Of a stretch of DNA of 64,000 bases, positions 2 to 16,479 are shown piece after piece. This stretch comes from Synechococcus sp. AG-679-C18. GTDB taxonomy: Bacteria > Cyanobacteriota > Cyanobacteriia > PCC-6307 > Cyanobiaceae. Where the stretch lies: the NCBI GenBank assembly GCA_003210755.1, contig QCUL01000011.1, positions 1 to 64,000 of the forward strand, in the 5' to 3' direction. Within the stretch, counting starts at the first letter, position 1; every line of letters starts with the position of its first letter. The notes beneath the pieces were generated by a model. The model was given only the letters and a program-made list of their open reading frames with translations, searched no databases and was not told where the DNA came from. The position numbers were made by a program, and so were the translations under genes.

Positions 2-550
2 GCTAATCCTGATCAGCTGCCGTTATTGGTGCTTGGGGCAGGTGCTAATGGGGCTAATAATCACATTCAATTGTTGGAGGCATTGATTCCCTTGGCAGGG
101 AGGTTGCGGGTGGTGGCTTTGTGCGGTCGCCGTGCGTCTGCTTTGAGCCAGATTCAGCAATGGACTGAGAAGCACCCCCAATTGACCCTGAATGCTTTGG
201 GCTTCCAAGGGCCTGCCGCGATGGCAGACCTTTACAAAAAAGCCTGGGCAATGGTTTCCAGACCGGGAGCGCGAACAGCCACGGAAGCCCTAGCTGCAGG
301 CTCCGTCCTGATTTTTAATGGCTTTGGTATGACCATGCCCCAGGAGCTTTTAGCGCGTCGCTATTTTCAGGCAAGGCAGATCGATTGCTGTATCCGTAAG
401 CCTCAGGATTTGGCTGAGGTTTGCCTCCGTTGGCTGGATCAACCCGAGCAGTACAACCAGCTCAAGGCTCGGGTGGTAAGGCATCAGCTATTTTCAAATC
501 GCGAGGCGATTCGCACTCTCATCTTTGACGGTCCTAAAGCAGTTTCATGA
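2..550 (+). CDS. Glycosyltransferase, MurG/MGDG-synthase-like (GT28 C-terminal domain), 5' end outside window
   Basis: The frame is open from base 2, so this is the C-terminal part (about 182 residues) of a gene that begins before the window. It shows the GT28-type nucleotide-sugar binding half: a glycine-rich LGAGAN segment near the start, then a stretch reading SRPGARTATEALAAG, which corresponds to the donor-binding loop of MurG and MGDG synthases. Members transfer a sugar to a lipid carrier or lipid at the membrane. Its stop overlaps the polyketide synthase start by ATGA (547-550), so the two are translationally coupled. I infer that it glycosylates a lipid made by the downstream synthase. 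The acceptor cannot be told from this fragment; a role in ordinary glycolipid synthesis is the alternative. Confidence 0.7.
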   Translation, partial: ANPDQLPLLVLGAGANGANNHIQLLEALIPLAGRLRVVALCGRRASALSQIQQWTEKHPQLTLNALGFQGPAAMADLYKKAWAMVSRPGARTATEALAAGSVLIFNGFGMTMPQELLARRYFQARQIDCCIRKPQDLAEVCLRWLDQPEQYNQLKARVVRHQLFSNREAIRTLIFDGPKAVS

Positions 551-3500
551 CGGCATTGGATCCTCTGGACTTGCCCATGCAACCCATACCAATCGCCGTA
601 ATTGGCATGGGTTGCCGGCTCCCAGGTGGTGTTGAAAATCCTGGAGATTTTTGGGATCTGCTTGTCGAAGGGCGGGAGGTGATTACCGAGGTGCCCGCCG
701 ATCGTTGGGATCTATCACTTCACCACCATCCCGACCCCCGTCATCCGCTTACTCAACATGTGAGCCGTGGCGGTTTTGTGGAGGGAATCGATCAGTTTGA
801 TCCTTCGTTTTTTGGGATCAGTCCTCGGGAAGCAGTGTGTATGGATCCTCAACAGAGGATGCTTCTAGAGGTGGCCTGGCGGGCGATTGAAAATGGTGGT
901 CAACCACTTGAGCGGCTTAAGGGGCGTTCAGTAGGGGTGTTTATCGGCATTTCAAGTACTGATTACGCGGCCTTGCTCTGGGCTTCGGAAGATCGTTGGC
1001 TCACCCCAGATAACGATCCTTTCATCTTGGCGGGTAACACCGGTTCCATTGCCGCCAATCGGATCTCCTATCTATTCGATCTGCGAGGCCCCAGCTACAC
1101 GATTGATACGGCCTGCTCTTCTTCACTGGTGGCTGTGGATCAGGCCTGCGCCAGTCTTTGGAGAGGTGAATCTGAACTGGCGTTGGTCGGGGGCGTCCAA
1201 GCCCTGATTCATCCAGCGATGCAGACCATGTTCTGCAAGGCTGGATTGTTATCTCCTGCCGGGCGTTGCCGCAGTTTTGATGCTGCTGCTGATGGTTACG
1301 TCCGTTCAGAGGGTGCAGGAGCGGTTTTGTTGAAACCATTGGACGCTGCATTGCGTGATGGGGATCCAGTGCAAGCTCTGATCCGCGGTACGGCAGTGAA
1401 TTCCGATGGACGTAGTCCAGGCATGGCTGCTCCCAGTGTCAAAGCTCAGGCGGCCTGCATGAAACAGGCCTATGCCCGCGCCGGCCTCGATCCGAGAAAT
1501 TGTCTCTACGTAGAGGCCCATGGCACAGGAACGCGTCAGGGGGATCCGATTGAATTGCGGGCCTTGGGGAGTGTGTTGGCTCCTGGTCGGGCCTTCGATT
1601 CACCCTGTCGGGTGGGATCGGTCAAATCAAACCTGGGCCACAGTGAGACTGCGGCTGGGATCACGGGCTTGATCAAGGCGGTGCTATGCCTTCAAAAAAG
1701 GCAGCTGCCGGCCAGCTTGCACTTAAAGACGCCAAATCCTGCAGTTGATTTTGCTGCTCTTCGCCTGCAGGTGCAAACAGAGCTGGAACCCTTCCCGGAG
1801 AGAGAGAGAGAGCCGGTTTTGGGCGTTAGTTCCTTTGGCTTCGGTGGCACCAATGCCCACGCGTTATTGACGCAGGCACCTGATCAATCTCCACAAAAAC
1901 GAGAGGAGGAGCATGGGCCCTGGGTGCTACTGCTCAGTGCTCGCAGCGAAGTGGCGCTCAACCAACTCAAGCGTGAGACAGCTGAATGGTTGGAAGCTGA
2001 CCCCAGTCTCAATTTGGCAGATGTTTCTGCCACCAGCCTGCGAGGGCGCAGCCGTTTCCCCCATGCACTGGCTTGTCAATACCACAATCACCACGATTTG
2101 CTGGCCCAGTTGCGCGGAGAGCAGCCCATTAGCTGGCTAGGGATGCTCTCCGAAGAAGGTCCTGCAGAGCTCCAGGCCATAATCAAGGCTTGCGCGACGC
2201 TGCCGGAGCGACACCGTTGGCTGCCGCTGCCTGGGCACCCTTTTCTGCGACAACGATTCTGGTGGCCTCAGGCTGACGATGCTGCTGCTGCAAAGGGTGC
2301 GTCTCTTTGGCTTGATCGGCTTGGGTTAGGTCAAGTAATTAAAGATACTCAGGCGCATGCTTGGCAACGCCTGGACCTGCCTGGTGAAACTCAGTATCTG
2401 CAGGCAAGGATTCTGGAGCCCAGTCAGGGAGATCTGGACGACCATCGCATCCGTGGCCAGATCGTTTACCCAATAGCTGGGCACCTGGCGCTCGCTTTCG
2501 ATTGGTTGCATCGCAATCGGGAGCCTCTGAAGCTTCAGAAGTTCGCGCTCGACACCCCTTTGCGCCTTGATCCCCTTAGTGATGTCACGCTGCAGGCCGT
2601 GCTGAAGGATCAGCAGCTGGAGCTGTTTAGCCGTTCGGATGGGGAGGAAGGCAACTGGTGCCGCCATGGCGCTTTAGCGATGGTTCCAACGGCCGAATCG
2701 GACCTATCGCCACATCCATTGATCGACGAAGACGGGGAGCAGGAGCGCAAGGATTGCGGGGAATTTTATGCCGAGCTACGCAGTCTTGGGTTGGAGTACG
2801 GCCCGAAGTATCAGCCGATTTTCAGTTTGCGTGCCCAAAACGGGGTTGCTGAGGCTGAACTGCAACGGCCAGCGGATGCACCAGATCGATGTCTTCTCGA
2901 TGGTTGTCTTCAGGTGGTGGCTGGGACCTTGCCTCAGGGTTCGGCGAGAGCTCAGCTTCTGTTGCCGATTGGATTGGAGCGGATTCAGATGCTGCATTGG
3001 CCACTGCCAGAGCGGTTGCAGTGCTGGGCGCAGAAACGTCCTGATCATGGTCAGGCTGATCCTTCTCTACTAGTGGCGGATCTCTGGATCGAGGCCGATG
3101 GTCAACTTGTTGGCTGGATTGAGGGTCTAACGGCGCGCCGCCTCCCGAGGCCAATGCTCGAGCTGCTTTTCCCTCTACCCCCACCTCCTGCAGGACCGGA
3201 CTTGCTGGAAACCCGCTGGGAGCAGATCGAGGTTTTGCCAGATCCGCCAGCGGTCTTGGTACCCGAGGACTCAACTGAGGGTGGGGAGCAGATCGTTGAA
3301 CTCGACGGAATTACTACGGCATTGTTCCTGGAGAAGGTGCAGGCTTACGCAGCGGATGAACCACTTCAATTAAGGGTGATCGTTCGGGATGCGGGTGAAG
3401 ATTCGCTCGCTCTGCGAGCAGCATTGCGCTGCCTGGCCATGGAGAGACCTCGTTGGACCTGTAGCTGGTGGCAGCTGCCTCCTTTGGTCGAGCGTCAGCC

Positions 3501-6500
3501 GGATGAGACCGATCGGGCCCGTTTGGCCCTGATCAGTTCAGAGATCAGTGAACTGTGCTGGCAGGACGGGACGGTTTCAACCCCTCGCCTTCAGCGTTTG
3601 GACCCTGTGCGGGCTCAATGGCTCGGGGATGGCAGCGGCCGATTGGATGGACTGCTCCGTCAGCCTTTGCCTGTGCCTGTCTTAATGCCAGGAGAGTTGG
3701 AGTTGCAAGTTGAGGCAACAGGGCTCAATTTCAGAGATGTGCTCAATGCCCTTGGGCTGTTGCAGGCGCATGCCGCGGGCCTCGGTCTGCAAGGAACCAG
3801 TCAGTTGCCCTTTGGTGGGGAAGCGGTTGGGCAAGTGCTGGCTGTTGGGCAAGGTGTGGATCCGGCCCTTGTCGGCCAACGGGTGCTTGCAGCTCTCTCG
3901 GTGGGCAGCCTGGCCACTCATGTTGTTTGCCAGGCTGAGCTCTGTGTGCCCTGGCCTGAGGCGTTGCCGCTGGAGCTTGGAGCGAGTGTGTCCACCGCAT
4001 TCCTCACAGCGATTTATGGGCTAGAGACGCTCGCCAAGCTCCAGCCTGGTGAAACCGTGTTGATTCATGCTGCTGCTGGCGGTGTTGGGCAGGCGGCCCT
4101 GCAGATCGCCCATCGCTGTGGTGCTCGGATTCTGGCGACTGCGAGTGCTGGTAAACACGAGAGGGTGCTGGAGCACCCCGGGGTCGAAGCCGTGTTTGAT
4201 TCCCGTAGCACAGCATTTTCTGAGCAGGTGTTGGCCCACACCTTGGGCTGCGGCGTGGATGTGGTGCTCAACAGCCTCAAGGGGGAGTGGGTGGATGGCA
4301 GCTTTGCGGCTCTCGCTGATGGCGGCCGTTTTGTGGAGCTTGGAAAGTTGGAAGTGTGGACGCGAGAGCAGGCCGAGGAACGACGCCCCGATGTGCGCTA
4401 TCTGCCCTTTGATCTGCTTGAAGTGTCGGCCGCTGATCCCTTACCGCTGCGCCGTCAGTTGCAAAAGCTCTCCGTTGCCTTTCATGAGGGTGCACTCGCT
4501 CCGATTCCTTGCCAGTCCTTTCCGGTGGAAGAGCTTGCCGATGCCTTTCGGCTGATGGCCCAGGGTCGCCATGTGGGCAAGCTGGTCATCCTTCAGCCAC
4601 AACGCCCTCAGCCGGTGCGGATCCTGGCGGATGCCACCTATCTCGTAACTGGCGCCTTGGGAGGCGTGGGGTTGCAGTTGCTGCCGTGGCTTGTCGATCA
4701 GGGCGCGCGTTCCCTGTTGCTGGTGAGCCGAGGGGTGGAAGCGCCATCTACAGAGGCCCAGGCTGTGCTGGATCAGTTGGAGGCCCAAGGCGTGAGCTGC
4801 CGCAGGTTTGCTTGTGATTTGTCCGGGGGCGCTTCGGAAGCGGAGCGATTGCGCCAGGTGCTGATGGCCTTGCCGATGGAGCAGCCCTTACGCGGGTTGG
4901 TCCATGCGGCTGGGGTGTTGCGAGACCGCCCCATGCAAGAGCTCACATCTCAAGATCTCAATGCAGTGATGGCTCCCAAATTGAATGGCTGGCACTTACT
5001 CGAGCAAGCTCTCGAACCCTTTCCTCCTCTGGACTTTCAGCTGGCATTCTCATCATTAGCAACTCTGCTGGGCTCGCCTGGTCAAGTGGCCTATGCCGCC
5101 GCCAATGGAGCTCTGGAGACCTGTTGTGCCATGGCTGCAGACCACACTCCTGGCAGCCCGATGAAGCTGGCGATTCAGTGGGGACCCTGGGCTGGGGCTG
5201 GAATGGCCGCTGGCCTGGAGGATCGTTTCGCAAGTGTGGGCCTTCAGATGTTGACGCCGGATGCGGCGCTGGAGGCTTTGGGGACTCTGCTTGAGCGCGG
5301 ACGTTCCGGCGTGGTGGCTGTGGTGGAGGCCGACTGGGCACGGGTGCGGGGCCAGGCCCTGCCACGTCAGAGCGATTTTTTGGAAGCACTGCAGCCGGAC
5401 GATACGGCCGACGCGCGTTTGGCGGTGCAAGAACAGTTGCGTTCTTTGGCCGTAGACGATCGCCTTCCTTGGTTGGTGAAAAGCCTGACAGAGAAGCTGG
5501 CTGAGGTGATGGAGGCCGATGCCGGCGCGATTGATCCGCTGGCCTCGTTGTTCAGCCTGGGCCTTGATTCGCTCATGGCCGTGGAATTTGCCGCAGTTGT
5601 GCAGACCGAGCTGGGGTTGCGCTTGGAGTTGGAGGCGTTTCAGAACGACCCTCGTTTGCAGGATCTGGCCCATCTGGGCCTGGAACAGTTGCTCCCCGAA
5701 GCCGGTGGTTCGGCCCCTGTGCTTGATCTGACTGCTGAAGCCCAGCTGCCAGTCGACTGGTTGTTACCTGAGACGCCTGCTCTTGAATCCCCCGGGGAGC
5801 GGGTGCTGATGACTGGCGCCAGCGGGTTTTTGGGCGCTTATCTGCTTGCAGGGCAGTTGCGGCGCTGGCCTGATCTCCAAGTGCGCTGTTTGGTGCGCTG
5901 CCCCGCGGCGGAACAGGGCCTGGAGCGGTTGGAGGCCAATCTGCGTTGCTACGGCCTTTGGGATCCGGCATGGCGTGCGCGGCTGGAGGTCGTCCCCAGT
6001 GATCTCGCGCGTGCACGCTTCGGACTAGAGGAGGATGCTTTTAAGTCTCTGATCGCTGGAGTAGGAGGCATCCTTCATAACGGCGCCCAGTTGGGCTACT
6101 TGGCTTCCTATTCACAGCTGGCAGCCGCGAATGTGGGCAGTACCCGCGATCTATTGCGGTTGGCTACGGAGCACGGACCGATTCGCCTGGAGCTGATCTC
6201 CAGCGTGGCTGCTTTTGAGGCGGATGCCTGCCGGAACCGGGAGATTTTGGAAGATGAACCCCTGCTGCATTGGCAAGGCATCCATCTGGGCTATTCCCAG
6301 ACCAAGTGGGTGAGCGATCGGCTGGTGTGGAAGGCGGGTCAGTCCGGGTTGCCGGTCACAATTTATCGACCTCCCTTGATCGGCGGAAATACTCGGCCTG
6401 ATCGAGACGGCCGCCATCATTGGCAGGAGGGCAATCTGCTTCAGCGCCTTCTGCAGGGCTGCTTGCAGCTGGGGAAGGTGCCTGATCTGGAGTGGGAGCT

Positions 6501-6918
6501 TGATGCAGTGCCTGTGGACTATGTGGCTGATGCCATTTCGGCGTTGGCCTGGAGCGATGGAGCCGCAGGCCAGGTGTACCACCTCCAACACCCGCAACCG
6601 TTGTTACTCAGTGAGTTATTGGCGCGGCTTTCGGCACGAGGGATGCGTCTAGAGACGGTGTCAACTGAGGAATGGCTAACTGCAATCGCGGGGACGAGCT
6701 CTGACCATCCATTGCGACCGTTGTTGCCCTTCTTTAAGCAGCGCTGGGGTCTGGAGGGACTCACATTCCCAGAACGCAATGTGCGTGGCGTGCGGGCTCG
6801 CCCCAGCTGCGATGTCACGGTACGGGCTTTGGGGGCTCTGGGAGTGCAATGCCCTGACCACGACCTCTTGGAACATGCCTGGGGAACGGCTCTACTGGGT
6901 CAAGCAACCGTGGAGTGA
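547..6918 (+). CDS. Type I polyketide synthase, KS-DH-ER-KR-ACP-thioester reductase, lacking AT
   Basis: This 2123-residue synthase is a single fully reducing module with a reductive release domain. Ketosynthase is at about 13-445, with Cys190 (DTACSSS), His325 (HGTGT) and His365 (NLGHSE). Residues 450-570 are a short linker with no GHSxG acyltransferase motif. Dehydratase is at about 575-880, with His633 in HxxxGxxxxP and Asp785 in DxxxQ. Enoylreductase is at about 1035-1355, with GGVG at 1178. Ketoreductase is at about 1362-1560, with GALGGVG at 1369, Ser1503, Tyr1516 and Asn1520. ACP Ser1675 sits in GLDSL. The C-terminal thioester reductase has GASGFLG at 1757 and Tyr1916/Lys1920 (YSQTK). 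All catalytic residues are present, so I expect a saturated chain released as aldehyde or alcohol, with malonyl loading in trans (perhaps by FabD). Glycosyltransferases flank it on both sides with overlapping start and stop codons. Confidence 0.92.
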   Translation: MTALDPLDLPMQPIPIAVIGMGCRLPGGVENPGDFWDLLVEGREVITEVPADRWDLSLHHHPDPRHPLTQHVSRGGFVEGIDQFDPSFFGISPREAVCMDPQQRMLLEVAWRAIENGGQPLERLKGRSVGVFIGISSTDYAALLWASEDRWLTPDNDPFILAGNTGSIAANRISYLFDLRGPSYTIDTACSSSLVAVDQACASLWRGESELALVGGVQALIHPAMQTMFCKAGLLSPAGRCRSFDAAADGYVRSEGAGAVLLKPLDAALRDGDPVQALIRGTAVNSDGRSPGMAAPSVKAQAACMKQAYARAGLDPRNCLYVEAHGTGTRQGDPIELRALGSVLAPGRAFDSPCRVGSVKSNLGHSETAAGITGLIKAVLCLQKRQLPASLHLKTPNPAVDFAALRLQVQTELEPFPEREREPVLGVSSFGFGGTNAHALLTQAPDQSPQKREEEHGPWVLLLSARSEVALNQLKRETAEWLEADPSLNLADVSATSLRGRSRFPHALACQYHNHHDLLAQLRGEQPISWLGMLSEEGPAELQAIIKACATLPERHRWLPLPGHPFLRQRFWWPQADDAAAAKGASLWLDRLGLGQVIKDTQAHAWQRLDLPGETQYLQARILEPSQGDLDDHRIRGQIVYPIAGHLALAFDWLHRNREPLKLQKFALDTPLRLDPLSDVTLQAVLKDQQLELFSRSDGEEGNWCRHGALAMVPTAESDLSPHPLIDEDGEQERKDCGEFYAELRSLGLEYGPKYQPIFSLRAQNGVAEAELQRPADAPDRCLLDGCLQVVAGTLPQGSARAQLLLPIGLERIQMLHWPLPERLQCWAQKRPDHGQADPSLLVADLWIEADGQLVGWIEGLTARRLPRPMLELLFPLPPPPAGPDLLETRWEQIEVLPDPPAVLVPEDSTEGGEQIVELDGITTALFLEKVQAYAADEPLQLRVIVRDAGEDSLALRAALRCLAMERPRWTCSWWQLPPLVERQPDETDRARLALISSEISELCWQDGTVSTPRLQRLDPVRAQWLGDGSGRLDGLLRQPLPVPVLMPGELELQVEATGLNFRDVLNALGLLQAHAAGLGLQGTSQLPFGGEAVGQVLAVGQGVDPALVGQRVLAALSVGSLATHVVCQAELCVPWPEALPLELGASVSTAFLTAIYGLETLAKLQPGETVLIHAAAGGVGQAALQIAHRCGARILATASAGKHERVLEHPGVEAVFDSRSTAFSEQVLAHTLGCGVDVVLNSLKGEWVDGSFAALADGGRFVELGKLEVWTREQAEERRPDVRYLPFDLLEVSAADPLPLRRQLQKLSVAFHEGALAPIPCQSFPVEELADAFRLMAQGRHVGKLVILQPQRPQPVRILADATYLVTGALGGVGLQLLPWLVDQGARSLLLVSRGVEAPSTEAQAVLDQLEAQGVSCRRFACDLSGGASEAERLRQVLMALPMEQPLRGLVHAAGVLRDRPMQELTSQDLNAVMAPKLNGWHLLEQALEPFPPLDFQLAFSSLATLLGSPGQVAYAAANGALETCCAMAADHTPGSPMKLAIQWGPWAGAGMAAGLEDRFASVGLQMLTPDAALEALGTLLERGRSGVVAVVEADWARVRGQALPRQSDFLEALQPDDTADARLAVQEQLRSLAVDDRLPWLVKSLTEKLAEVMEADAGAIDPLASLFSLGLDSLMAVEFAAVVQTELGLRLELEAFQNDPRLQDLAHLGLEQLLPEAGGSAPVLDLTAEAQLPVDWLLPETPALESPGERVLMTGASGFLGAYLLAGQLRRWPDLQVRCLVRCPAAEQGLERLEANLRCYGLWDPAWRARLEVVPSDLARARFGLEEDAFKSLIAGVGGILHNGAQLGYLASYSQLAAANVGSTRDLLRLATEHGPIRLELISSVAAFEADACRNREILEDEPLLHWQGIHLGYSQTKWVSDRLVWKAGQSGLPVTIYRPPLIGGNTRPDRDGRHHWQEGNLLQRLLQGCLQLGKVPDLEWELDAVPVDYVADAISALAWSDGAAGQVYHLQHPQPLLLSELLARLSARGMRLETVSTEEWLTAIAGTSSDHPLRPLLPFFKQRWGLEGLTFPERNVRGVRARPSCDVTVRALGALGVQCPDHDLLEHAWGTALLGQATVE

Positions 6919-8135
6919 TCGAGCTGATTTGTGCACAGGGATTGTGGCTGGCCCTAGGGATCCAGGGGTTGGTCCTGGCGCTGTTCGCTTGGCGCTGGCA
7001 CGGGCTGAGGCATGAGCAACGCCGTTGGCCGAGGGAGCCCGAGGATGGTTGGCCGGAATTGGAAGTCCTTCTGTGTTTGCGTGGTGCTGATGCCGCGCTA
7101 CCGGCTCTTCTGGCCAGTTTGGCGGCACAGGCCTACTCAGGCTGCTGGCACTTGCATCTTGTGGTGGACAGCGAGGATGATCCCGCCTGGGGCCTTGTGG
7201 ATCCTTGGCTGAAAACGTCGCAGGCGGGTTGGTCCACGCTCCGGCGAGAGCGTCTCCACAACCGACCTGTGCAGGGATCGCTGAAATGTGCAGCCCTGCG
7301 TCAGGCGTGCTCTGGCTTGATGCCTGCAACGCAGCTGGTGGTGCTGTTGGATGCCGATGCCACTCTCGCTCCGGACGGTCTGCAGCGCCTAGCACGTGCG
7401 TGTTGGCGTCCAGGGGTGGGGGCGGTGTCCGGTAATCGTTGGTATGCGCCCGCTGGCTGGGGTGTCCTTGCCTGGTCTCGGGCGGTGTGGGGTGCTGCTG
7501 CCCTGGTCTTGATGACCTTGCTCCACATCCCCTGGGGCGGCAACCTCGCTCTGCGGCGGGAGTTGGTGGATGTCGGTGGTTGGACCCAGCTGCTCGAGCA
7601 AGGGCTCTGTGAAGACACTGGCCTGCTAGGGCCGTTGCAGCACTTGGGGATGCGTTATGAACCGCGCCCAGAGCTGCTCGTAATGGAGCGGAGCGAGCCT
7701 GAAACTTGGGGCGAGCATTATCACTGGATCAGCCGTCAGATTCTCAACACCCGTTTGCACCATCCCTTAGGTGTGCTGGTGTTGCTTTATGGCCTGGGTT
7801 CCATACTGGTTTTGGCACTGCTTGGGCTGGCAGTCCTCAATGGGATCTGGTGGATAGCGCTTGGATACGAGCTGGGCTGTTGGATTCTGCTGCTGTGTCT
7901 CCAAGCGGTGGTGATTCGACGCTGGTCGCAGTCTCGTCAGGTCATCGGTTGGCTGCTAGGTGTTCTGCCGGGACAGGTGATCAATAGCGCCACCACTGTT
8001 GGCGCTTGGTTGCAGAAAAAGGTGGCGTGGCGTGGCGTTACTTACCAGGTGACCCACCGCCCTGATGGAGTCCGCTTGATTGCCGAGACCAACCGCCTTA
8101 GGCGGGAGCCAGCATCAACTGACGCAGTGTCTTGA
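6915..8135 (+). CDS. Membrane glycosyltransferase family 2, ceramide-glucosyltransferase-like
   Basis: This 406-residue protein starts at GTG inside the synthase stop (GTGA, 6915-6918), so it is coupled to the polyketide synthase. An N-terminal membrane anchor (about 8-26) is followed by a GT2 catalytic domain with VVDSEDD near 84, the DAD motif at 146-148, and CEDTGLLG followed by HWISRQ further on. This layout is that of processive or lipid glucosyltransferases such as glucosylceramide synthase (GT21-like). The C-terminal third carries two or three hydrophobic segments. The family uses UDP-sugars on the cytoplasmic face of the membrane and transfers to lipid acceptors. I infer that the acceptor is the alcohol or lipid made by the polyketide synthase. 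The last 38 bases overlap the convergent SRPBCC gene. Confidence 0.8.
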   Translation: MIELICAQGLWLALGIQGLVLALFAWRWHGLRHEQRRWPREPEDGWPELEVLLCLRGADAALPALLASLAAQAYSGCWHLHLVVDSEDDPAWGLVDPWLKTSQAGWSTLRRERLHNRPVQGSLKCAALRQACSGLMPATQLVVLLDADATLAPDGLQRLARACWRPGVGAVSGNRWYAPAGWGVLAWSRAVWGAAALVLMTLLHIPWGGNLALRRELVDVGGWTQLLEQGLCEDTGLLGPLQHLGMRYEPRPELLVMERSEPETWGEHYHWISRQILNTRLHHPLGVLVLLYGLGSILVLALLGLAVLNGIWWIALGYELGCWILLLCLQAVVIRRWSQSRQVIGWLLGVLPGQVINSATTVGAWLQKKVAWRGVTYQVTHRPDGVRLIAETNRLRREPASTDAVS

Positions 8136-8646
8136 AGTTCTCTCGAAGGCTGGCGTCATGGAGCTTGCGGAAGCTGGGCAGCAGTAAAGGTGGCACCTCC
8201 GGCTTGAGACGGATGGTGTGAACAATGCGTGTGCCACCTGCCACTGGAGTGAGTGTCCAGTGGCCTGAGAGGGCATGAATGCGCTCCCCTTGCACAAGCC
8301 CGTAGCGAAGGGTGCGGGACTTCGAATCTTCTGTTCCCTCAAGAAGCGCCGTGATGGTGAGCCCAAAGGTGTACGGAGCTTTCAGAACTTGGCGCAGGCG
8401 CAATCGCTGCCCCTTCCTTGACACCAGGCTCACGGCCTTCACATCTGGCATGGCCGCGAAGGTGCGGGTGTAGTCGGTGAGTACGGCCCAGGCTCGCTGT
8501 GGTGAAACTGGAACTTGCATGGAGACTGTGGCCTTCTCTCCATTGCGGACCAGTTGCACTTGTCCGCTGGCCTGGAGTTGCACCAGGGCAGCCGGTTTAG
8601 GCCGCGGTGGTTGCTGCAGATGCGGATTAAGGAGGATCCAAAGCAT
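8098..8646 (-). CDS. SRPBCC (START/polyketide-cyclase-like) protein
   Basis: The 182-residue product has an N-terminal hydrophobic and proline-rich segment, then a SRPBCC/COQ10-type fold from about residue 35. The typical pattern VPVSPQRAWAVLTDYTRTFAAMPDV is seen in part, followed by a domain ending in FRKLHDASLRENFKTLRQL. The family forms a hydrophobic cavity that binds lipids or polyketides and seldom has catalytic motifs that can be read from sequence. It is the last gene of the minus-strand set wzc, phosphatase, beta-barrel protein, SRPBCC, with 2 bases between it and the beta-barrel gene. Its 3' end overlaps the GT2 gene on the other strand. A lipid-binding role for the polyketide product is attractive but only an inference. 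Confidence 0.75.
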   Translation of the reverse strand: MLWILLNPHLQQPPRPKPAALVQLQASGQVQLVRNGEKATVSMQVPVSPQRAWAVLTDYTRTFAAMPDVKAVSLVSRKGQRLRLRQVLKAPYTFGLTITALLEGTEDSKSRTLRYGLVQGERIHALSGHWTLTPVAGGTRIVHTIRLKPEVPPLLLPSFRKLHDASLRENFKTLRQLMLAPA

Positions 8647-8648
8647 GG

Positions 8649-10421
8649 TTAGAAACTCACCAAAACCCTTCCTCCCCAGCGGATCTGCTCAGCATTGAGC
8701 AATTGGCCAATGTCAACGATCGAGGCGGCGGTGCTGCCATACGCTTCGATCGCCATGTTGTCAGTCGCGTGCCAGCGCAGACCAAGCGTGCCATTGCTTT
8801 GAGCCAAGTTGTTCACCACCACGTTGCCTTCAGGAACGAGCTCCCAGCGCGGGGCTAATTGAACGCTGGAACTAACCCCCACACCCCAGAGGTTACCGGT
8901 ACCAACTAGGGCAACCTTCGGATTAAGGCTGATGGCCAGTCTTGGGGTTGCTTCCCATGTGGCCATTGTTTCTGCGAACAGATAACCCTGTCCTGTGGTG
9001 TTGACGAGATCAAAATTGCGTCCAACTGTAATGCGCCCTCCACCCCAGAAGGGGGCCCCACGCAGGGGGCTAAAAAACACGGCTTTGCCGCCAATCCGCA
9101 AATTGCGGGCGCCGTCGTTGGCGAAGAGGCGCGCCTGGGGTGTGGTCTGGGGCAAGTTATTAGAGAGACCGCCAATCACCTGAAGCTGAAAGATGTTGGA
9201 GAGTGAATAGCCCACGAATCCGTTCACGTTGCCGCTTTCGTCGGCATTGGCCCACAACTCCGAGCTGTCGTCGGGGGGGACTAGGGCGGAGTTCACGGTC
9301 AGCCCCCCTTTGGCGAGGGAACGTTGCCGCTTCGTTAGGGGTTGTTGCGGAGTGTCGGGACCATCGGGGGTGAATACAAAACTGGCTGAGTAGCCGAGCC
9401 GATTGTCTGATGGAAGGGCGAGCAGGGCAGTCGCAGGAGTAGTCCCAAAGCCATTGGTGAGTTGTCCGCGTAGGCCGATTCTTGGGTTGAGATCCCAGTT
9501 CAGACCGGCTGAGTAGATCGGTACGCGTGAAAAGTCCAGATTGGTATTGAAACTATTGCTCCCTGATCCAATCGGCTGAGCAAAGGTTGCTGTTAATCCC
9601 AAGTGCTGATTGGCTTGCCAGAGCAGACCAGCGGCGAGGTATGGAGTGGTGCCATAAAAACTGCCGCTGCCGCCCTGTCCTGCGCCTTGCTTGGCCGGGA
9701 GCCAACTCACACCTGGGACAAAACTGAGCAGTAATTGGTCAGTGGCCTGCCAGCTGAGGGGAAGGGTAAGAGATCCCACCAAGTTGGACGTGAACACCCG
9801 CTGCCCTGAGCTATTAAAGATGTTTGGTGTGGCGTCGTCCCCTTTGCTCGCAAAAGAATCGTCTCCTCCACTACCAACATTCCATATTTCTAAGGAACCA
9901 TTGGCGGCAATACTGAGGTGCTTGTTTTTAAACAATCTCCAGCGAGCTGCAGCGGCGTAGCTCTCCCAGAAGTTGGCGGGCGCAACACTGAATCCATCCA
10001 AAGGGGCGTTTAGAGGGTCATCGGCCTGGGAGTAATAGGCGGAGAGTTGAAAAGATTCTGAGAGGCCTACATCAAGACTCACGGCATAATTTTGATTGCC
10101 TGTGCCAGTAGCACTCCTAAACGGCGACAACTGGGTAGCCGAGAAACGCCATCGCTCAGGTTCGAGTAACAAAGACGTTGGCACTGCAGCAGAAAGGCGC
10201 AGCAACGGCAAGTAGTCCGCAGAGATCAGAGGAGTGTTGATGTATGTCGCTTCAATTTGTTCGGCATTCAGTGGTTGTAAGGCCGGAGCTGGAGGGTTGG
10301 CTTTGATTGGTAATGCCGGCTCCTTGAGTACTTCCCAGCGAGGCCCATCGTTGGAGATAAAAACTGGTGAAATGATCGGCGGCGGTGGGGGTGGTGGAAC
10401 CGGAGTCCAAGTGATTGGCAT
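8649..10421 (-). CDS. Predicted outer-membrane beta-barrel protein, function unknown
   Basis: I do not recognise a named family for this 590-residue protein. It begins with a proline-rich stretch (seven consecutive Pro around residues 9-15). From about residue 90 it becomes a long run of alternating polar and hydrophobic strands with repeated aromatic/Gly turns (for example LGLTATFAQPIGSG and WDLNPRIGLRGQLTNGFG) and ends in RWGGRVLVSF, a terminal aromatic strand typical of outer-membrane barrels. No classical signal peptide is visible at the chosen ATG, which overlaps the phosphatase stop (ATGA, 10418-10421 read on the minus strand); this is odd for an exported barrel. Because it lies in one operon with the Wzc kinase, a porin-like part of polysaccharide export is one possibility; a lipid-related role is another. 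Confidence 0.65.
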   Translation of the reverse strand: MPITWTPVPPPPPPPIISPVFISNDGPRWEVLKEPALPIKANPPAPALQPLNAEQIEATYINTPLISADYLPLLRLSAAVPTSLLLEPERWRFSATQLSPFRSATGTGNQNYAVSLDVGLSESFQLSAYYSQADDPLNAPLDGFSVAPANFWESYAAAARWRLFKNKHLSIAANGSLEIWNVGSGGDDSFASKGDDATPNIFNSSGQRVFTSNLVGSLTLPLSWQATDQLLLSFVPGVSWLPAKQGAGQGGSGSFYGTTPYLAAGLLWQANQHLGLTATFAQPIGSGSNSFNTNLDFSRVPIYSAGLNWDLNPRIGLRGQLTNGFGTTPATALLALPSDNRLGYSASFVFTPDGPDTPQQPLTKRQRSLAKGGLTVNSALVPPDDSSELWANADESGNVNGFVGYSLSNIFQLQVIGGLSNNLPQTTPQARLFANDGARNLRIGGKAVFFSPLRGAPFWGGGRITVGRNFDLVNTTGQGYLFAETMATWEATPRLAISLNPKVALVGTGNLWGVGVSSSVQLAPRWELVPEGNVVVNNLAQSNGTLGLRWHATDNMAIEAYGSTAASIVDIGQLLNAEQIRWGGRVLVSF

Positions 10422-10900
10422 CAGCTTGCTCCTGCCTGTGATCCTCTTAAGGCAGGTTTTCTCAACAGTGCGAGTTGGCCTGGAAGTGGGTTGGTGCCTT
10501 TGTGCACTTGCATCAGGTAATCGAGAGCTTGCTCAGGGCTCAGGCTGTGGCGTTGCACCAGCCAAGCCAGGCAAACCAGGGGAGATCTTTCCATTGCTGC
10601 CACACAATGGACAAAGACAGAGCCATACTTTTCGTGCAGCGTTGCTAATTGATCCAGTGCTGCGAGTAGCTCATTAAACTCGGGAAGGCGACCGCTTTGA
10701 TGGTCAGGCAGCACTAGGCGACAACAGGCGAATTGGTCATTCATTGCGGCTGGAGGAAGAGCTTCTTCTTCTGCGCACAGGCTGAACACGGCTTTGATAC
10801 CGGCGTCCTTGAGGAGGGAAATATGATTCTCTTCGGTGGGAGCTGGGCCAATCGCTAACTCATCAACGAGAATCCAATTGATCTGAAAACGTTTTTGCAT
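10421..10900 (-). CDS. Dual-specificity/tyrosine phosphatase family protein
   Basis: The 159-residue protein carries the cysteine phosphatase signature HCVAAMERS (HCx5RS) at about residues 96-104, with an upstream acidic loop position around VLPDH that could supply the general acid. The fold is of the dual-specificity type, not the low-molecular-weight (Wzb) type. It starts 5 bases after the Wzc kinase stop and its own stop overlaps the beta-barrel gene, so all are probably on one transcript. In polysaccharide systems a phosphatase resets the tyrosine-phosphorylated tail of the Wzc kinase; I infer that this protein does so here in place of Wzb. Other phosphoprotein substrates remain possible. 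Confidence 0.82.
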   Translation of the reverse strand: MQKRFQINWILVDELAIGPAPTEENHISLLKDAGIKAVFSLCAEEEALPPAAMNDQFACCRLVLPDHQSGRLPEFNELLAALDQLATLHEKYGSVFVHCVAAMERSPLVCLAWLVQRHSLSPEQALDYLMQVHKGTNPLPGQLALLRKPALRGSQAGAS

Positions 10901-10905
10901 AGAGA

Positions 10906-13341
10906 TCAGCTATCAATCCAGCGCATAAAATTTCTGCGTTTTCTTGTAAATTTCTGGCGCCAGTTTTTTGTTTTAGTAGTTGGTTTGTCTTGTTGGGTTG
11001 ACGCGTTCTCTACGTCTGAGTTGGCGTAGTGGGCATAGGTCCATGAGGAGTCGTAAGCACCATATCCATATTTTTTATAACCGTACTGCCCATATCCATA
11101 GGCGGAGCGAGACTCTTTTGATTGCTTAATCCCATTGGTGACTAAACCCAGAAGTGGAGCACCACTGGCAAGAATGCGGTTTACGGAATCTTTAGGCATT
11201 CCACGGTCAACACGTTCGAGACTTACGAGAAGCATCAAGCCGTCGCAATGTTCAGCCACGAGGGCTGCATCTGCGAGTCCCAGAACAGGAGGAGTATCGA
11301 ATAAAATTAAATCAAAATCATCACTATTTGCAAGCTCATCAATTAAGGAGTGCATTCGGTTAGAACTCAGCAATCTAGTTGGATCTGGTGGTCGTCGACC
11401 AGCAGTCAGTACTTTCCAATTGTCGTAACCAGGAACATTTTGCAAAGCGTTGTTCCAGCTCTGTTCACTTTCAGTCAGCAGATTGGAAAGGCCTGTGAGA
11501 TTATTAAGGCCCAGACGGGTATGCATTTGTGGTTTGCGCAAGTCAGCATCAATCAAAAGCACACGCTGTCCCATTTCAGATAGGGTTTTGGCAAGAAGTA
11601 CATTCACCAGTGATTTACCTTCTGCAGGAAGAGAACTCGTGAGAGCAATAGTCTTCAACGGTTGATCACTATTCAAAAAACGGATGGAGGTAAACAAGTT
11701 ACGAAACGCTTCTTGATAGAAAAAGCGTTGATAGCTTTTCAGCTTGATGTCTGCTTTCTCTTTGTTTTTTGCAACATCCGAATTGCTATCCAGTTCTGAG
11801 AGCAGGAAGCGTTTATCCTCTCGAACACCCTCAAAGAACTCCACATGGGGTATGTGTCCGAGTAAAGCAAGTCCTAGTTCTTCTTTAACTTCTTCGGGGT
11901 TGTGAAAGACATGGTCAAAGCGCTCTCGTAGGAGACCGATGCCAAGGCCAGAGAACAGTCCCAAAAAGATTGCCTTGAAAAGCCCATTCCCCACCCTGGG
12001 CTCGATGGGATTTGGATTCATCGTGGGAGGAGATATTAATCTCCACGGCACGCTATTTTGAGCGAGTTCGAGCCGGAAGGATTCTTGCGCAGAGGTGAGA
12101 GCTGCCAGATTACCTTGTACTAACTGAAGCCTGCCTATCAGCTTTTCATAAGCTTTAATTAAGGCTGGTTGGCGCGAAAAATTCTGATTGAGGCGATTGA
12201 CCTCCTCCTCTGTGGAATTGATCTGGTCGGCATTGACCTGAAGAGCTGTGTCAATAGCTTGAAGCTGGCTTGCTAAAAGTAAAGGCTCGATTTGGGCTTT
12301 TTTTTGCACCAAGCTTTGCACCACTGAGGAGTTCGGCTGATAGGTGCTACGAGCTTCCGCGAGAGCTTCCTCAACTGAGGTGAGTTGTTCGACTAAGCCT
12401 GGGTCGATGCCCGTAATATTGAGACTTCCAATGATGGAGGAACCAGATGTGGAGTTGGATCCTCCCGACATGCTGCCATTTTGACCACTACTAATACTGC
12501 CTTGGAAGCCAGAAGAACTGAGATTACCAGCGGCTACTTGTATACGTATTTGTTCTAAATTACGACGCGTATTTTTTAAACCCAGCAGACCTTGCTCTTT
12601 GCTAGCTAGATTACTCTCAGCTGTGGCAGCTTCGTCTGCTGCGTTGATTAAACGATTCTGTTTGCGGAAAGATTCAAGTTCATTGAGCACTTCAGCGGTT
12701 TTTTCTTCTAGGTCGGGTGCCTGTTGATCAAGAAAGGCCAAGCCATCTCGAAGACGCTGCTGGCGCTGTCTTTGAGCTGTTTTTAGATAGGTATTGGCTA
12801 ATTCAGCAAGCAGAAGTTTATCTTCTTCTGGATCCTTGCCCTTGAGGCTAACTTTGAGAATCCCTGCGCCAATATTTCGTGGTCCGCCACCTTCTGGCGT
12901 AATGGAAATGCGGGATGCAAGGCTACCTTCATTAATGCCTATTCTTTTCGCTAACGGCTCAAGAACGAGATAGCTGCGCATCACCGCAATTAAAGTTGGC
13001 AAGTCGTTGTTGATAGAGTTAAGCGCTAAATTTTGAAAGTTTGTATTGCTTTCCTGAGCGCTTTGTCCTGAAGGGTTATTGCTAATAGGGTCTTTAATGA
13101 GAAGGCGAAATGATCCTTGGTATACAGGATTAAATATCCTTTCAGTTAATAGCTGTAAGCTCATTGCCGAGATAACAACGCCGGCTGTGATGGCAATTAG
13201 CTTTTTTCGTCTTGAAACTACTCGAATAAAATCTTTCCATCTGAAACCTTTGTCTGCAAAACTATTTGTGTGGCTAGGTGAACCCGTTGCAGAAAAAGAT
13301 TGAAATTGCTCATTATTTTTTGAGCTTGAGCTCAAGGCCAT
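10906..13341 (-). CDS. wzc: Polysaccharide co-polymerase with C-terminal BY-kinase (Wzc-like)
   Basis: The 811-residue inner-membrane protein has a Wzz-type domain with a first transmembrane helix near residues 46-66 and a second near 450-470. The periplasmic region between them is long, coiled-coil-rich, and contains a Ser/Gly-rich insert (about 270-310). The cytoplasmic kinase follows: Walker A in SSLPAEGKSL (about 566), Walker A' in LLIDADLRKPQ (about 600), Walker B in LILFDTPPV (about 680). Near residues 744-770 is a tyrosine cluster with nine Tyr in about 30 residues. Proteins of this type control chain length and export of capsule or exopolysaccharide by cycles of tail phosphorylation. 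It diverges from the Wza-type gene across 75 bases and leads an operon with the phosphatase. Confidence 0.93.
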   Translation of the reverse strand: MALSSSSKNNEQFQSFSATGSPSHTNSFADKGFRWKDFIRVVSRRKKLIAITAGVVISAMSLQLLTERIFNPVYQGSFRLLIKDPISNNPSGQSAQESNTNFQNLALNSINNDLPTLIAVMRSYLVLEPLAKRIGINEGSLASRISITPEGGGPRNIGAGILKVSLKGKDPEEDKLLLAELANTYLKTAQRQRQQRLRDGLAFLDQQAPDLEEKTAEVLNELESFRKQNRLINAADEAATAESNLASKEQGLLGLKNTRRNLEQIRIQVAAGNLSSSGFQGSISSGQNGSMSGGSNSTSGSSIIGSLNITGIDPGLVEQLTSVEEALAEARSTYQPNSSVVQSLVQKKAQIEPLLLASQLQAIDTALQVNADQINSTEEEVNRLNQNFSRQPALIKAYEKLIGRLQLVQGNLAALTSAQESFRLELAQNSVPWRLISPPTMNPNPIEPRVGNGLFKAIFLGLFSGLGIGLLRERFDHVFHNPEEVKEELGLALLGHIPHVEFFEGVREDKRFLLSELDSNSDVAKNKEKADIKLKSYQRFFYQEAFRNLFTSIRFLNSDQPLKTIALTSSLPAEGKSLVNVLLAKTLSEMGQRVLLIDADLRKPQMHTRLGLNNLTGLSNLLTESEQSWNNALQNVPGYDNWKVLTAGRRPPDPTRLLSSNRMHSLIDELANSDDFDLILFDTPPVLGLADAALVAEHCDGLMLLVSLERVDRGMPKDSVNRILASGAPLLGLVTNGIKQSKESRSAYGYGQYGYKKYGYGAYDSSWTYAHYANSDVENASTQQDKPTTKTKNWRQKFTRKRRNFMRWIDS

Positions 13342-13416
13342 ATCGCCTAACTACCAGTGAGACTATTGTCCGGTGCGACCTTGCTTAAGCGAGTCCCTGT
13401 GGGACACTTCTATTAA
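13342..13416. promoter_or_regulatory. Divergent wzc/wza intergenic region
   Basis: Only 75 bases separate the start of the wzc-like operon (minus strand) from the assigned start of the wza-like gene (plus strand). Promoters for both directions must lie here or inside the first codons. I see no convincing -10/-35 pair or operator, so this is inferred from gene layout alone. Confidence 0.4.
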
Positions 13417-14550
13417 TTGGCTTTGGTGCTAGCGGTGATCTCATTGATTCGTCGTCCCCTAGCGCTAACTCTAATGTGCGCCCTTTATTCGGCTCAGGTT
13501 GCTTCCGGGGTTTTTGCGGTAACAACAGACTATGATGCACTCAAAAATAGTGCATCTCAACGAGAAATAGATGTTTCTGAAGATGTTTACATCATAGGTC
13601 CTGGTGATGAGCTTGAGCTCAAGGTCTTTGGTTCTGAGGAATTGTCAGGACCACTCACAGTCTTAAGTGATGGCAGCGTTTCGTTTCCCTATCTTGGCTC
13701 TGTACGACTGGCGGGGCTTACGTTGCAGCAGGCGATGCTTTGGACGCGAGAGTTGTTAAGCAAGGAATTATTGCGGACTGATCTGCAGTTAACCGTCACT
13801 CGTCCGCGTCCTATGCACATTTCCATCATTGGGCAGGTTCAGCGACCTGGGCTTTACACTCTTGGTGAAAATACTGGAAGTTCTTCCGGCGGAAATTCTG
13901 AAGGTGTGGGAGGAGCTACAAATGGACTTCCTACCTTAGTTTCTGCGATTCAAACAGCAGGGGGAATCACGCAGCAGGCCAGTCTCCGTGATGTGGTGTT
14001 GCAACGCCGAATGCCAGGCTTGGAGCCTCGTTACAAGATGCAGCGCCTCAATCTTTTTTCCTTATTGTTTGATGGTGATCAACGTCAGAATCCTTATTTA
14101 TTTGATGGCGATGTGATTAAGGTGCTTTTGGCGGAAGAAACGCCAGAGCAAGCCGTTGAGCTCGCCGCAGTTAACCTGTCGCCTAATACCATCAGTGTCA
14201 ATGTGATGGGAGAGGTTCAATCGCCGGGGGTTATGAATCTCCGGGCTAATATTCCTCTTACTCAAGCTGTATTAATGGCTGGCGGTACACGAGAGTGGAG
14301 AGCAAACCGCGGAGATATTGAGCTTGTAAGACTCAACCGTAATGGCAGCGTTACATTGAAACGCTTTCGGCTGAATTTAAGTGCGGGAGCTTCAAACGAA
14401 AAGAACCCGCCGTTGCGAGATGGAGATATTGTTCGCGTTAAGCGCAGCTTGCTGGCGAAAGGTTCGGATGCAATTACCGGGGTAACCCAACCCTTTACGG
14501 GCTTGGTGAGCGTCTGGGGATTGGTGAGGCTTATTGGAGATAACAACTAA
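13417..14550 (+). CDS. wza: Polysaccharide export outer-membrane protein (Wza/OPX-like)
   Basis: The 377-residue protein has an N-terminal hydrophobic signal segment (about 1-36, ending ...VASGVFA). A Poly_export domain begins near residue 55 with the hallmark IIGPGDELEL and continues with SDGSVSFPYLGSVRLAGLT. Two SLBB domains follow, opening with ISIIGQVQRPGLY (about 133) and VNVMGEVQSPGVM (about 261). The C-terminus (GLVSVWGLVRLIGDN) can form an amphipathic helix, as in the Wza alpha-barrel. Family members form the periplasmic and outer-membrane channel for capsule or exopolysaccharide. A TTG start was used because it precedes the signal segment; GTG at 13426 and 13435 are alternatives. It pairs with the divergent Wzc kinase. 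Confidence 0.9.
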   Translation: MALVLAVISLIRRPLALTLMCALYSAQVASGVFAVTTDYDALKNSASQREIDVSEDVYIIGPGDELELKVFGSEELSGPLTVLSDGSVSFPYLGSVRLAGLTLQQAMLWTRELLSKELLRTDLQLTVTRPRPMHISIIGQVQRPGLYTLGENTGSSSGGNSEGVGGATNGLPTLVSAIQTAGGITQQASLRDVVLQRRMPGLEPRYKMQRLNLFSLLFDGDQRQNPYLFDGDVIKVLLAEETPEQAVELAAVNLSPNTISVNVMGEVQSPGVMNLRANIPLTQAVLMAGGTREWRANRGDIELVRLNRNGSVTLKRFRLNLSAGASNEKNPPLRDGDIVRVKRSLLAKGSDAITGVTQPFTGLVSVWGLVRLIGDNN

Positions 14551-15448
14551 TTCTTTAATTCTCGCAAAGATAGATAATTTTGGATTTTTGCCATTACCTC
14601 GCAAAAAAATATTTATTTGGCAGATTTTAAACATTGTCCTGTTATGCTGCTGTCCTAAGGTGTATTAATTGCTGGAATGAATGTTCAGGGCTTTTTAAAA
14701 GATAAGGCAAGAATATAGGCGTAAAGTAAAAATATCACTATCCCTATAGGCGTAAGTATTTTGATGTATTTGTGCTTAAGAGCGATGCAGATATTGCTTC
14801 TGATGAAAGAAGCTATTGATGCTTTCGAATTCGTATGTTGCTTTTGTGAGGATGTTTTTAGATGTTGTTATAATTGCCAGTATGGCTATGTTGCTGAGAG
14901 AATTTCCTTTTGATGCGTAAGATGTTGCGGTTAGTTTTTGAAGAGATGATTGGCCGGTTTTCCTGGTAGAAATGATTCGGGTTCTAGTTGAATGTCTCGC
15001 TTTGGTTTTGATAAGTGATGTCTTGTGGTTGGGAAAATAAATCAAATGTTGTTGGAAAGATTGGCGGAGGTAACGTTTTTGAGCTCAATTCAGATTAAGA
15101 TTCATAATCAGGCATGAAAATACGTTGATTTTAGTCAGGTTTATATTAATATTTTATTACTATTCCCTTTCGCTCGCTTTGACCACGCCCCTGCTAACCA
15201 AGTAGGGAAAAGCAAGCTCAGCAGCTTGCTAAGAAATCGGGATGGCTATAGATCAGGGAGAGGATGTATCTAAGTTAGAAAAATCTGTTTGTAGGGAATC
15301 ACAGTGGTTTACATTTGAAAATTGAATTAGGGAAAATTATCCTAGCTCTAATCTTTGGCACAGCTTCCTATTTTAAGCAAGAAAGAACTTACGCCGAGTT
15401 TAAGAAGGTTTGTAGTTCTTCTTTCCTCTACTACTTCGCCTACGCAAG
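14551..15448. other. Gene-free AT-rich gap between wza and galE
   Basis: About 900 AT-rich bases lie here with no convincing gene on either strand. An 11-base direct repeat (tataggcgtaa) occurs at 14714-14724 and 14745-14755. A perfect hairpin lies at 15211-15230 and is listed separately. The stretch upstream of galE probably holds its promoter, but no clear -10/-35 pair was picked out. Confidence 0.5.
15211..15230. repeat. Perfect 8-bp inverted repeat (hairpin)
   Basis: The sequence agcaagct, a 4-base loop cagc, and agcttgct form a perfect hairpin. There is no T-tract after it on either strand, so it is not a standard Rho-independent terminator. It sits about 220 bases before galE in otherwise empty sequence. 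It may be a decayed terminator, part of a small RNA, or a protein-binding site. Confidence 0.45.
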
Positions 15449-16477
15449 ATGACAATTCTGGTGACTGGGGGAGCGGGTTACATCGGTAGTCATGCCGTGC
15501 GGGCGTTGCAGCGAGCCGGCTATCGAACGGTAGTGCTGGACAATTTGGTGTATGGCCACCGGCAGATTGTGGAGGAGGTGCTGCAGGTGCCTCTGGTGGT
15601 GGGCCAAGTGGGTAATCGAGAGCTGCTGGACAAGCTTTTGAGCGGGGCTCATCCCGCCATAGGCGGAGAGCCTATTCAAGCGCTTCTGCACTTTGCCGCT
15701 TACGCCTATGTAGGTGAGAGCATGGCCAATCCAGCTAAATACTATCGTAATAATCTAGGCGACTCGCTGACGTTGCTTGAAGCGCTTAAGTCAGAGGGGG
15801 AGCGCCGGGGAACAACTCCTCTACCGCTGGTGTTTTCCAGCACCTGCGCCAGCTACGGGATTCCCGACCCGGCTCAGATTCCCATTGATGAGAGCTGCCC
15901 GCAGCAGCCAATCAATCCCTATGGCCGCAGCAAAGCGATGGTGGAGCAGCTGATTGCCGATTTCGGCGCGGCCTATGGCCTTCCGAGTGTGATCTTCCGC
16001 TACTTCAATGCCGCTGGCGCTGATCCAGCCGGTGATCTGGGGGAAAACCATATCCCTGAAACCCACCTTATTCCCCTGGTGCTCGATGCCATAAGCGGAG
16101 CCCAGCCCTACCTGCGGGTCTTTGGCGACGACTACCCCACGCCTGACGGCACCTGCATCCGCGACTACATCCACGTGACTGACCTTGCCGATGCCCATGT
16201 GCTGGGGCTGCAACGAGTTCTCGCGGTCGGAGGCCAGCACCTCTTCAACCTTGGCAATGGCACCGGCTACTCCGTCAAGCAGGTGATCGAGGTGGCCCAA
16301 TCCGTCACGGGGAGGGGCCTACTGGCCCACGTCGTGCCAAGGCGACCTGGGGATCCGCCGGTTTTGGTTGCTTCTGCGCACAAGGCTCGGCGGGAACTTG
16401 ATTGGCAGCCGCGCTATACGGATCTGAGTACGATCTTGGAGCACGCCTGGCTCTGGCACCGAACCTTTTCACCTTAA
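15449..16477 (+). CDS. galE: UDP-glucose 4-epimerase
   Basis: The 342-residue enzyme interconverts UDP-glucose and UDP-galactose using bound NAD+. It is a short-chain dehydrogenase-type epimerase with the N-terminal nucleotide motif [10 protein letters not shown] (about 6-15), the second-strand VLDNLVYGH, the catalytic Ser/Thr region FSSTCASYG (about 129), and Tyr/Lys in NPYGRSK (about 156-162). Length matches the family. It provides UDP-galactose for the glycosyltransferases of the island and lies 2 bases upstream of the UDP-glucuronate decarboxylase, so the pair is probably co-transcribed. Confidence 0.95.
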
Positions 16478-16479
16478 AG

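Follow-up and report, generated by a model that had tools for sequence, protein, structure and literature searches.

Among the closest described counterparts of the locus reported here are the heterocyst-glycolipid (hgl) islands of cyanobacteria, in which a reduced chain is made by a polyketide synthase (PKS), a thioester reductase acts, the sugar is added last and the product is exported (PMC11804610). As set out in the available text of that study, an hgl island is defined by at least seven homologues of heterocyst glycolipid (HG) biosynthesis genes and includes HglT and an ABC exporter; HG analogues occur in two non-heterocytous strains, and hgl islands without hglT occur outside the heterocytous clade (PMC11804610). 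Its main text names no Synechococcus, Cyanobium or Prochlorococcus. The present locus opens a 64,000-nucleotide stretch of Synechococcus sp. AG-679-C18 (contig QCUL01000011.1; the whole stretch is hereafter the window) and comprises genes for a GT28 glycosyltransferase, a type I PKS lacking an acyltransferase (AT) domain, and a membrane GT2/GT21 glycosyltransferase. In contrast to hgl islands, the cluster to which these genes belong combines one AT-less single-module synthase with the two glycosyltransferases, a major facilitator superfamily (MFS) carrier and a cytochrome P450.

Mycocerosic acid synthase carries an AT and is not known to have a thioester reductase. The window synthase resembles iterative PKSs of this type (PDB 9d2y is one of its best matches) in its ketosynthase (KS), dehydratase (DH), enoyl reductase (ER), ketoreductase (KR) and acyl carrier protein (ACP) domains and in full reduction. 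The barnesin PKS BrnF also lacks an AT, lies in a cluster without one and is proposed to use FabD, but it is a nonribosomal peptide synthetase-PKS hybrid of KS-KR-DH-thioesterase architecture; the available text does not mention repeated AT loss (PMC13096860). CF-20, an uncharacterised PKS family that the available text of Calteau 2014 describes as common among picocyanobacteria and conserved in the order and content of its genes (PMC4247773), may be the present cluster or another. Apart from this candidate, the literature searches turned up no description recognised as the present cluster.

We consider it probable, judging from gene and domain content, that the locus represents a conserved picocyanobacterial pathway to a glycosylated, fully reduced long-chain alcohol, i.e. 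a glycolipid. More tentatively, and with slightly less assurance than doubt, we propose that in Prochlorococcus, Synechococcus and Cyanobium one synthase family repeatedly loses its AT, is fed by FabD and makes undescribed, often P450-oxidised, glycosylated long-chain alcohols. Computation itself gives the order of the genes, their domains, the conserved motifs, the loss of the AT and, in relatives, purifying selection.

The Gene Trio and Its AT-less Synthase

The three genes (Table 1) are coupled by four-base overlaps in the open reading frame listing, ATGA (547–550) between GT28 and PKS and GTGA (6915–6918) between PKS and GT2, as a preliminary description of the window had claimed. The coupling is beyond chance, given the identical order and strand in 28 counted relatives (see below). 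That description had missed the absent AT and the wider cluster, and it needs correcting on the GT28 gene. Base 1 of the window is also base 1 of its contig, which leaves only the C-terminal half of this gene, and a GT28 profile matched no second piece in the genome's own assembly, the window piece being the only match.

The synthase is a single KS-DH-ER-KR-ACP module followed by a thioester reductase (TR). A Pfam scan found no AT domain (no PF00698 match), and of the catalytic motif patterns applied to the protein only that for AT went unmatched. With its one module and catalytic residues it conforms to the iterative reducing type I PKSs, and its lack of an AT places it with the AT-less (trans-AT) PKSs, although no dedicated trans-AT is encoded in the cluster (no PF00698 match among the cluster proteins scanned). 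Since there is one full reducing module, it is probably used repeatedly, and the KS-DH-ER-KR-ACP-TR architecture without AT predicts a saturated chain released as an aldehyde or alcohol.

Among 29 synthase rows, one of which (L103_1498) is another synthase type, the KS Cys, the first KS His, the KR Tyr and the TR YxxxK motif are present in all 29; strict patterns were matched in 27 (DH DxxxQ), 25 (ER), 23 (KR nucleotide site), 28 (ACP) and 27 (TR nucleotide site). AT-less synthase frames of 2118–2222 residues are open in 24 database protein clusters. The AT-less synthase is under purifying selection in relatives, as measured for L036, L038 and L039 (dN/dS 0.15–0.17; dN 0.03–0.04, dS 0.21–0.22), the window gene being without a close DNA relative. 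A phosphopantetheinyl transferase match is present in seven of eight genomes examined, including the window genome, and none was found in G048.

A Conserved Cluster in Cyanobiaceae

These three genes form the core of a wider cluster in the Cyanobiaceae, small cyanobacteria of oceans and lakes, usually ordered MFS, GT28, PKS, GT2, SRPBCC (opposite strand), hydrolase and P450. Of 34 stretches fetched around GT2 matches, six were left out of the counts (L042 and L043, with a distant GT2; L080, L084 and L086, truncated at contig ends; L103, a two-synthase variant), leaving 28 relatives that make 29 loci with the window; match places in G126 and G300 and a second place in G216 lie outside the fetched set. 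GT28, PKS and GT2 keep the same order and strand in all 28 relatives, although in three (L036, L038 and L039) an MFS gene comes between the first two, so that the separation of the genes in relatives, which the preliminary description had named as grounds for abandoning its proposal, was not seen. The counted loci carry 11 genus labels, and their upstream flanks vary. Profiles for GT28, PKS, GT2 and SRPBCC each matched in 29/29 loci; the MFS profile matched in 28 (the exception being the window, cut by the contig start), the hydrolase profile in 27 (absent from the window and L037) and the P450 profile in 25 (absent from the window and L037, with L082 and L099 ending too early). In L037 the MFS gene follows GT2, and the L083 synthase is divided between two overlapping frames. 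By longest frame, a measure that overstates overlap, the PKS and GT2 frames overlap in 27/29 loci.

The GT2 profile matched 34/400 family genomes at E ≤ 1e-30, the window genome included, and 20/251 of those of good quality; with the window GT2 protein, strong matches (E below 1e-80) were found in 8/98 relatives besides its own genome. A search with the window GT2 alone returned 13 stretches, none of them confirmed. Carriers include Prochlorococcus MIT1307 and MIT1341, described in the available text of PMC11559063 as LLVII low-light isolates in xenic culture. When named genomes were scanned with the GT28 profile, 36 loci came up, many at places already found by GT2, in Prochlorococcus single cells (AG-363, AG-402, AG-409), Synechococcus AG-673, UW140-like metagenome-assembled genomes (MAGs), Cyanobium and two Verrucomicrobia MAGs. 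At E ≤ 1e-8 the same profile matched 3/291 class genomes, all of the window's genus.

Loss of the AT

An AT profile matched 12 of the synthases in the 29 loci and left 17 without a match. In a tree of KS, ER, KR and DH from 127 synthases (including eight locus-derived rows, some identical to database rows), all 28 AT-less reductase-bearing rows form one clade (support 1.0), nested inside AT-bearing rows (parent node support 0.973). The clade is recovered with ER, KR, DH and TR singly (28/28, supports 0.93–1.0), with a sister group that differs by domain; in the KS-only tree it is joined (0.98) by P0118, a two-module synthase of 3183 residues without an AT match. All trees were made with FastTree only, and the reductase-free outgroup is not monophyletic. 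The nesting of the AT-less rows among AT-bearing ones suggests an ancestral AT and, in this clade, a single loss; the AT-less KS domains likewise nest among cis-AT relatives, in trees made without a reference trans-AT KS set.

Damage to the AT extends beyond this clade. Damage was best scored by reading the catalytic columns, the automated His pattern being loose; among the 98 rows with an AT, 7/17 ATs of the sister group are damaged (six with the Ser replaced, one with GDSAG), as are 5/81 outside it, all reductase-bearing. Over the 127 rows, reductase-bearing synthases comprise 48 intact, 12 damaged and 28 absent ATs, and 38 of 39 reductase-free ones are intact, the absent one being the two-module outlier P0118; the corresponding figures for the 119 database rows are 45, 12 and 24, with 37 intact and one absent among reductase-free rows. 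The Ser is gone in 10 of the 12 damaged ATs. P0032 keeps it (GQSNG) and is missing the aligned His stretch, and P0049 keeps both the Ser and the FH motif and may be active. A Ser-to-Gly change is also found in the fetched loci L083 and L088. On the tentative reading of repeated loss, every stage can be seen in this one gene, from an intact AT through a Ser-to-Gly AT and an eroded AT to a clean excision that leaves both linkers.

With P0050 (no KS), L103_1498 (no DH or ER) and P0118 left out beforehand, the Fitch minimum is nine changes, with 13 purely lost groups; scoring P0049 as intact gives 11 damaged ATs, a minimum of eight and 12 purely lost groups. The 12–13 separate lost groups are the count if losses are irreversible. 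All 12 damaged-AT rows retain the KS Cys, the KR Tyr and the ACP Ser. Strict patterns had given misses in P0032, P0056 and P0069, but reading the sites shows both the KR Tyr and the ACP Ser in each of them; the KR nucleotide site of P0069 reads GAFGA, versus GAFGG in the others. If losses have been repeated in this way, a module fed by FabD of primary metabolism could allow a cis-AT synthase to become AT-less with no dedicated trans-AT having to be gained, and the family would offer a natural series of this transition.

Source of the Malonyl Units

PF00698 was searched in 40 genomes, 17 with AT-less synthases, 15 with AT-bearing or cut synthases and eight without a strong GT2 match. Exactly one match was found in each of the 17 (nine of them at least 90% complete) and in seven of the eight (G013 had three), whereas 12/15 of the AT-bearing or cut group had two or more; G162, G216 and G283 had a single match despite belonging to that group, so the counts are assembly-dependent. 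The match in the window genome is FabD, above the TIGR00128 cut-off, and was named this way in that genome only. Intact ATs of relatives carry HAFH or HGFH motifs, which we take to be of malonyl type, malonyl being FabD's substrate. FabD probably loads malonyl onto the synthase ACP, a role for which barnesin synthesis provides a precedent in the available text of PMC13096860.

It is possible, if unlikely, that malonyl comes instead from another enzyme or from the malonyl-ACP of fatty-acid synthesis. PF00698 would miss an acyltransferase of another fold, but none of the 17 AT-less genomes has a second PF00698 match, and the cluster hydrolase, which was considered as a trans-AT and rejected, is no general supplier: it was not found in the window genome (G000) or the closed genome G021, both with AT-less synthases. 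Its profile also found no match in G014 and G013 and matched in six other genomes examined. Members of the hydrolase family that were scanned have no Pfam or NCBIfam match; the protein has a GHSSG motif and a confident model (pLDDT 90), for which a fold search gave no match at E ≤ 0.001 and weak alpha/beta-hydrolase matches.

Glycosyltransferases and the Proposed Pathway

The GT28 protein matches Pfam Glyco_tran_28_C (E 4e-6), and its shared part is 55–76% identical to homologues in eight relatives; its closest curated model is diglucosyl diacylglycerol synthase, at 53 of 500 bits and far below cut-off. GT2 matches Glyco_transf_21 and Glyco_trans_2_3, with PF13506 above cut-off. By sequence family it belongs with ceramide glucosyltransferase (GT21): its profile matches PDB 26qf with a whole-sequence E of 4.1e-8, in two pieces of which the second is weak alone, and similarity to this enzyme and to HpnI (TIGR03472) runs along the protein, but both are distant (HpnI 51 of 310 bits). 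The earlier claim that both flanking enzymes belong to families acting on membrane lipids is supported for their closest relatives, and a fully reduced chain followed by glycosylation remains the simplest reading.

In the proposed pathway FabD would supply malonyl units in trans to the synthase ACP, and KS, KR, DH and ER would extend and saturate the acyl chain, probably iteratively. The TR domain would free the chain as an aldehyde or alcohol, and GT28 and GT2/GT21 would then glycosylate it once or twice at the membrane. In most relatives the P450 and the alpha/beta-hydrolase-like protein may modify the product further and the MFS carrier may export it; the window genome gave no match to the hydrolase, and its locus lacks the cluster P450. 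One Verrucomicrobia MAG has a GT28 relative that overlaps both a KS gene and another glycosyltransferase gene, which we count in favour of a glycolipid. If the pathway is as proposed, an undescribed glycolipid is predicted in low-light Prochlorococcus (MIT1307, MIT1341), Synechococcus and Cyanobium. Such a lipid could serve as a membrane or cell-surface component and as a biomarker, and existing cultures would be a place to look for it.

Several points weigh against this glycolipid pathway. Product, sugar acceptors, sugar donor and loading by FabD are predictions, and the PF00698 counts vary with assembly. The cluster is patchily distributed (34/400 family genomes). The absence of the hydrolase from G000 and the closed G021 suggests that end products may differ. 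The GT2 structure model (pLDDT 92) has hyaluronan synthase and a mannosyltransferase as its best PDB fold matches, so the fold cannot separate lipid from polysaccharide acceptors, and polysaccharide export genes lie near the trio in the window.

The last two observations would suit glycosyltransferases that work on polysaccharide carriers, with the synthase making an unrelated metabolite and the neighbourhood belonging to an exopolysaccharide locus (Wzc-like, Poly_export and two epimerase genes span 10906–17454 downstream). We regard this as improbable, since GT28, PKS and GT2 stay together in all 29 loci despite differing upstream flanks, GT2 matches ceramide glucosyltransferase by profile, and the nearest curated model of GT28, though far below cut-off, is a lipid glycosyltransferase.

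The preliminary description had also called the product an HGL-like lipid. The likeness stands in the shared logic of PKS, thioester reductase, glycosyltransferase and exporter, and is not supported where the hgl pathway is meant strictly, as the gene set differs by Pfam content. It is very improbable that the locus encodes a genuine hgl pathway of a unicellular cyanobacterium: the synthase has a single module, the cluster has neither a PfaD-type reductase nor a separate ACP-TR protein, the exporter is MFS rather than ABC, and by Pfam content the cluster falls short of seven HG homologues (hgl gene profiles being outside the comparison). An identity of GT28 with HglT was considered and is not supported by the distribution of the GT28 profile, confined to the window's genus in the class scan, a result obtained with no direct hglT comparison. 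That the AT-less genes are decaying pseudogenes, as the GT28 and KS stump of G014, the patchy distribution, the split frame of L083 and the strict-pattern misses might suggest, is scarcely credible beside the open frames, the four invariant motifs and the low dN/dS in relatives reported above.

Features of the Locus and Neighbouring Genes

Table 1. Positions of the trio, the synthase domains and adjoining genes in the window
Feature	Position	Strand	Basis or remark
GT28 glycosyltransferase, C-terminal half, monogalactosyldiacylglycerol (MGDG) synthase / diglucosyl-diacylglycerol synthase-like	2–550	+	Open at contig start; Pfam Glyco_tran_28_C
Type I PKS without AT, KS-DH-ER-KR-ACP-TR, 2123 residues	547–6918	+	Pfam, NCBIfam; no PF00698 match
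KS with C-terminal extension	589–2034	+	Pfam; Cys190, His325, His365 invariant among 9 aligned
KS-AT linker remnant, CurL-like / RhiE-like, to residue 522	1924–2112	+	RhiE-like match below cut-off
Short spacer at AT position of AT-bearing relatives	2113–2226	+	Alignment
Retained post-AT linker motif PGHPF...WW	2227–2265	+	Alignment; strict motif in 15/29 rows
DH	2368–3153	+	Pfam
ER	3688–4590	+	Pfam
KR	4633–5193	+	Pfam
ACP, Ser1675	5485–5673	+	Pfam, alignment
TR	5803–6855	+	TIGR01746, 238 bits, above cut-off; Pfam NAD_binding_4
Membrane GT2/GT21 glycosyltransferase, ceramide-glucosyltransferase-like	6915–8135	+	Pfam, profile, structure model
SRPBCC (Polyketide_cyc2) protein	8098–8646	-	Convergent with GT2, overlaps its end; profile in 29/29 loci
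Conserved neighbour, 590 residues, no Pfam match	8649–10421	-	Profile in 20/29 loci, some others cut short

The 590-residue neighbour may be beta-barrel-like, as judged by eye. Beyond it, the exopolysaccharide locus (10421–17454) also encodes a dual-specificity phosphatase, next to the Wzc-like tyrosine kinase, Poly_export and epimerase genes. A tblastn search found no hydrolase or P450 relic in the window; P450 family matches of the window genome lie elsewhere, at about 31% to the cluster P450 over part of it. The synthase gave no match when compared with plasmids.

Related arrangements were seen in other genomes. L042 (G095, 1380–16148) places a GT2 relative beside KS, a PfaD-type reductase, an ACP-thioester reductase, an ABC transporter and a sulfotransferase; this arrangement resembles an hgl island, and the glycosyltransferase that is missing from hgl islands of non-heterocytous strains might lie here. 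The two-synthase variant (KS-KR-ACP-TR plus KS-AT-DH) adjoins the same GT28 in L113, L115 and L129, and a GT2 in L103. The Verrucomicrobia MAG locus L136 (7788–12396) carries ACP-FabA, KS, GT28 and GT4-type genes, of which the last three overlap, and the cluster relic L143 of G014 (8838–10426) consists of a full-length GT28 followed, with a four-base overlap, by a KS stump of 153 residues.

In the available text of the report on the Prochlorococcus isolates the word "polyketide" is absent (PMC11559063). Another study mentions PKS domains near prochlorosin clusters, with no match to the present cluster seen in the available text (PMC10783134). Faint off-target bands with hglT primers are reported in Synechococcus, with some homology to Synechococcus and Cyanobium sequences, in the available text of PMC10569477.

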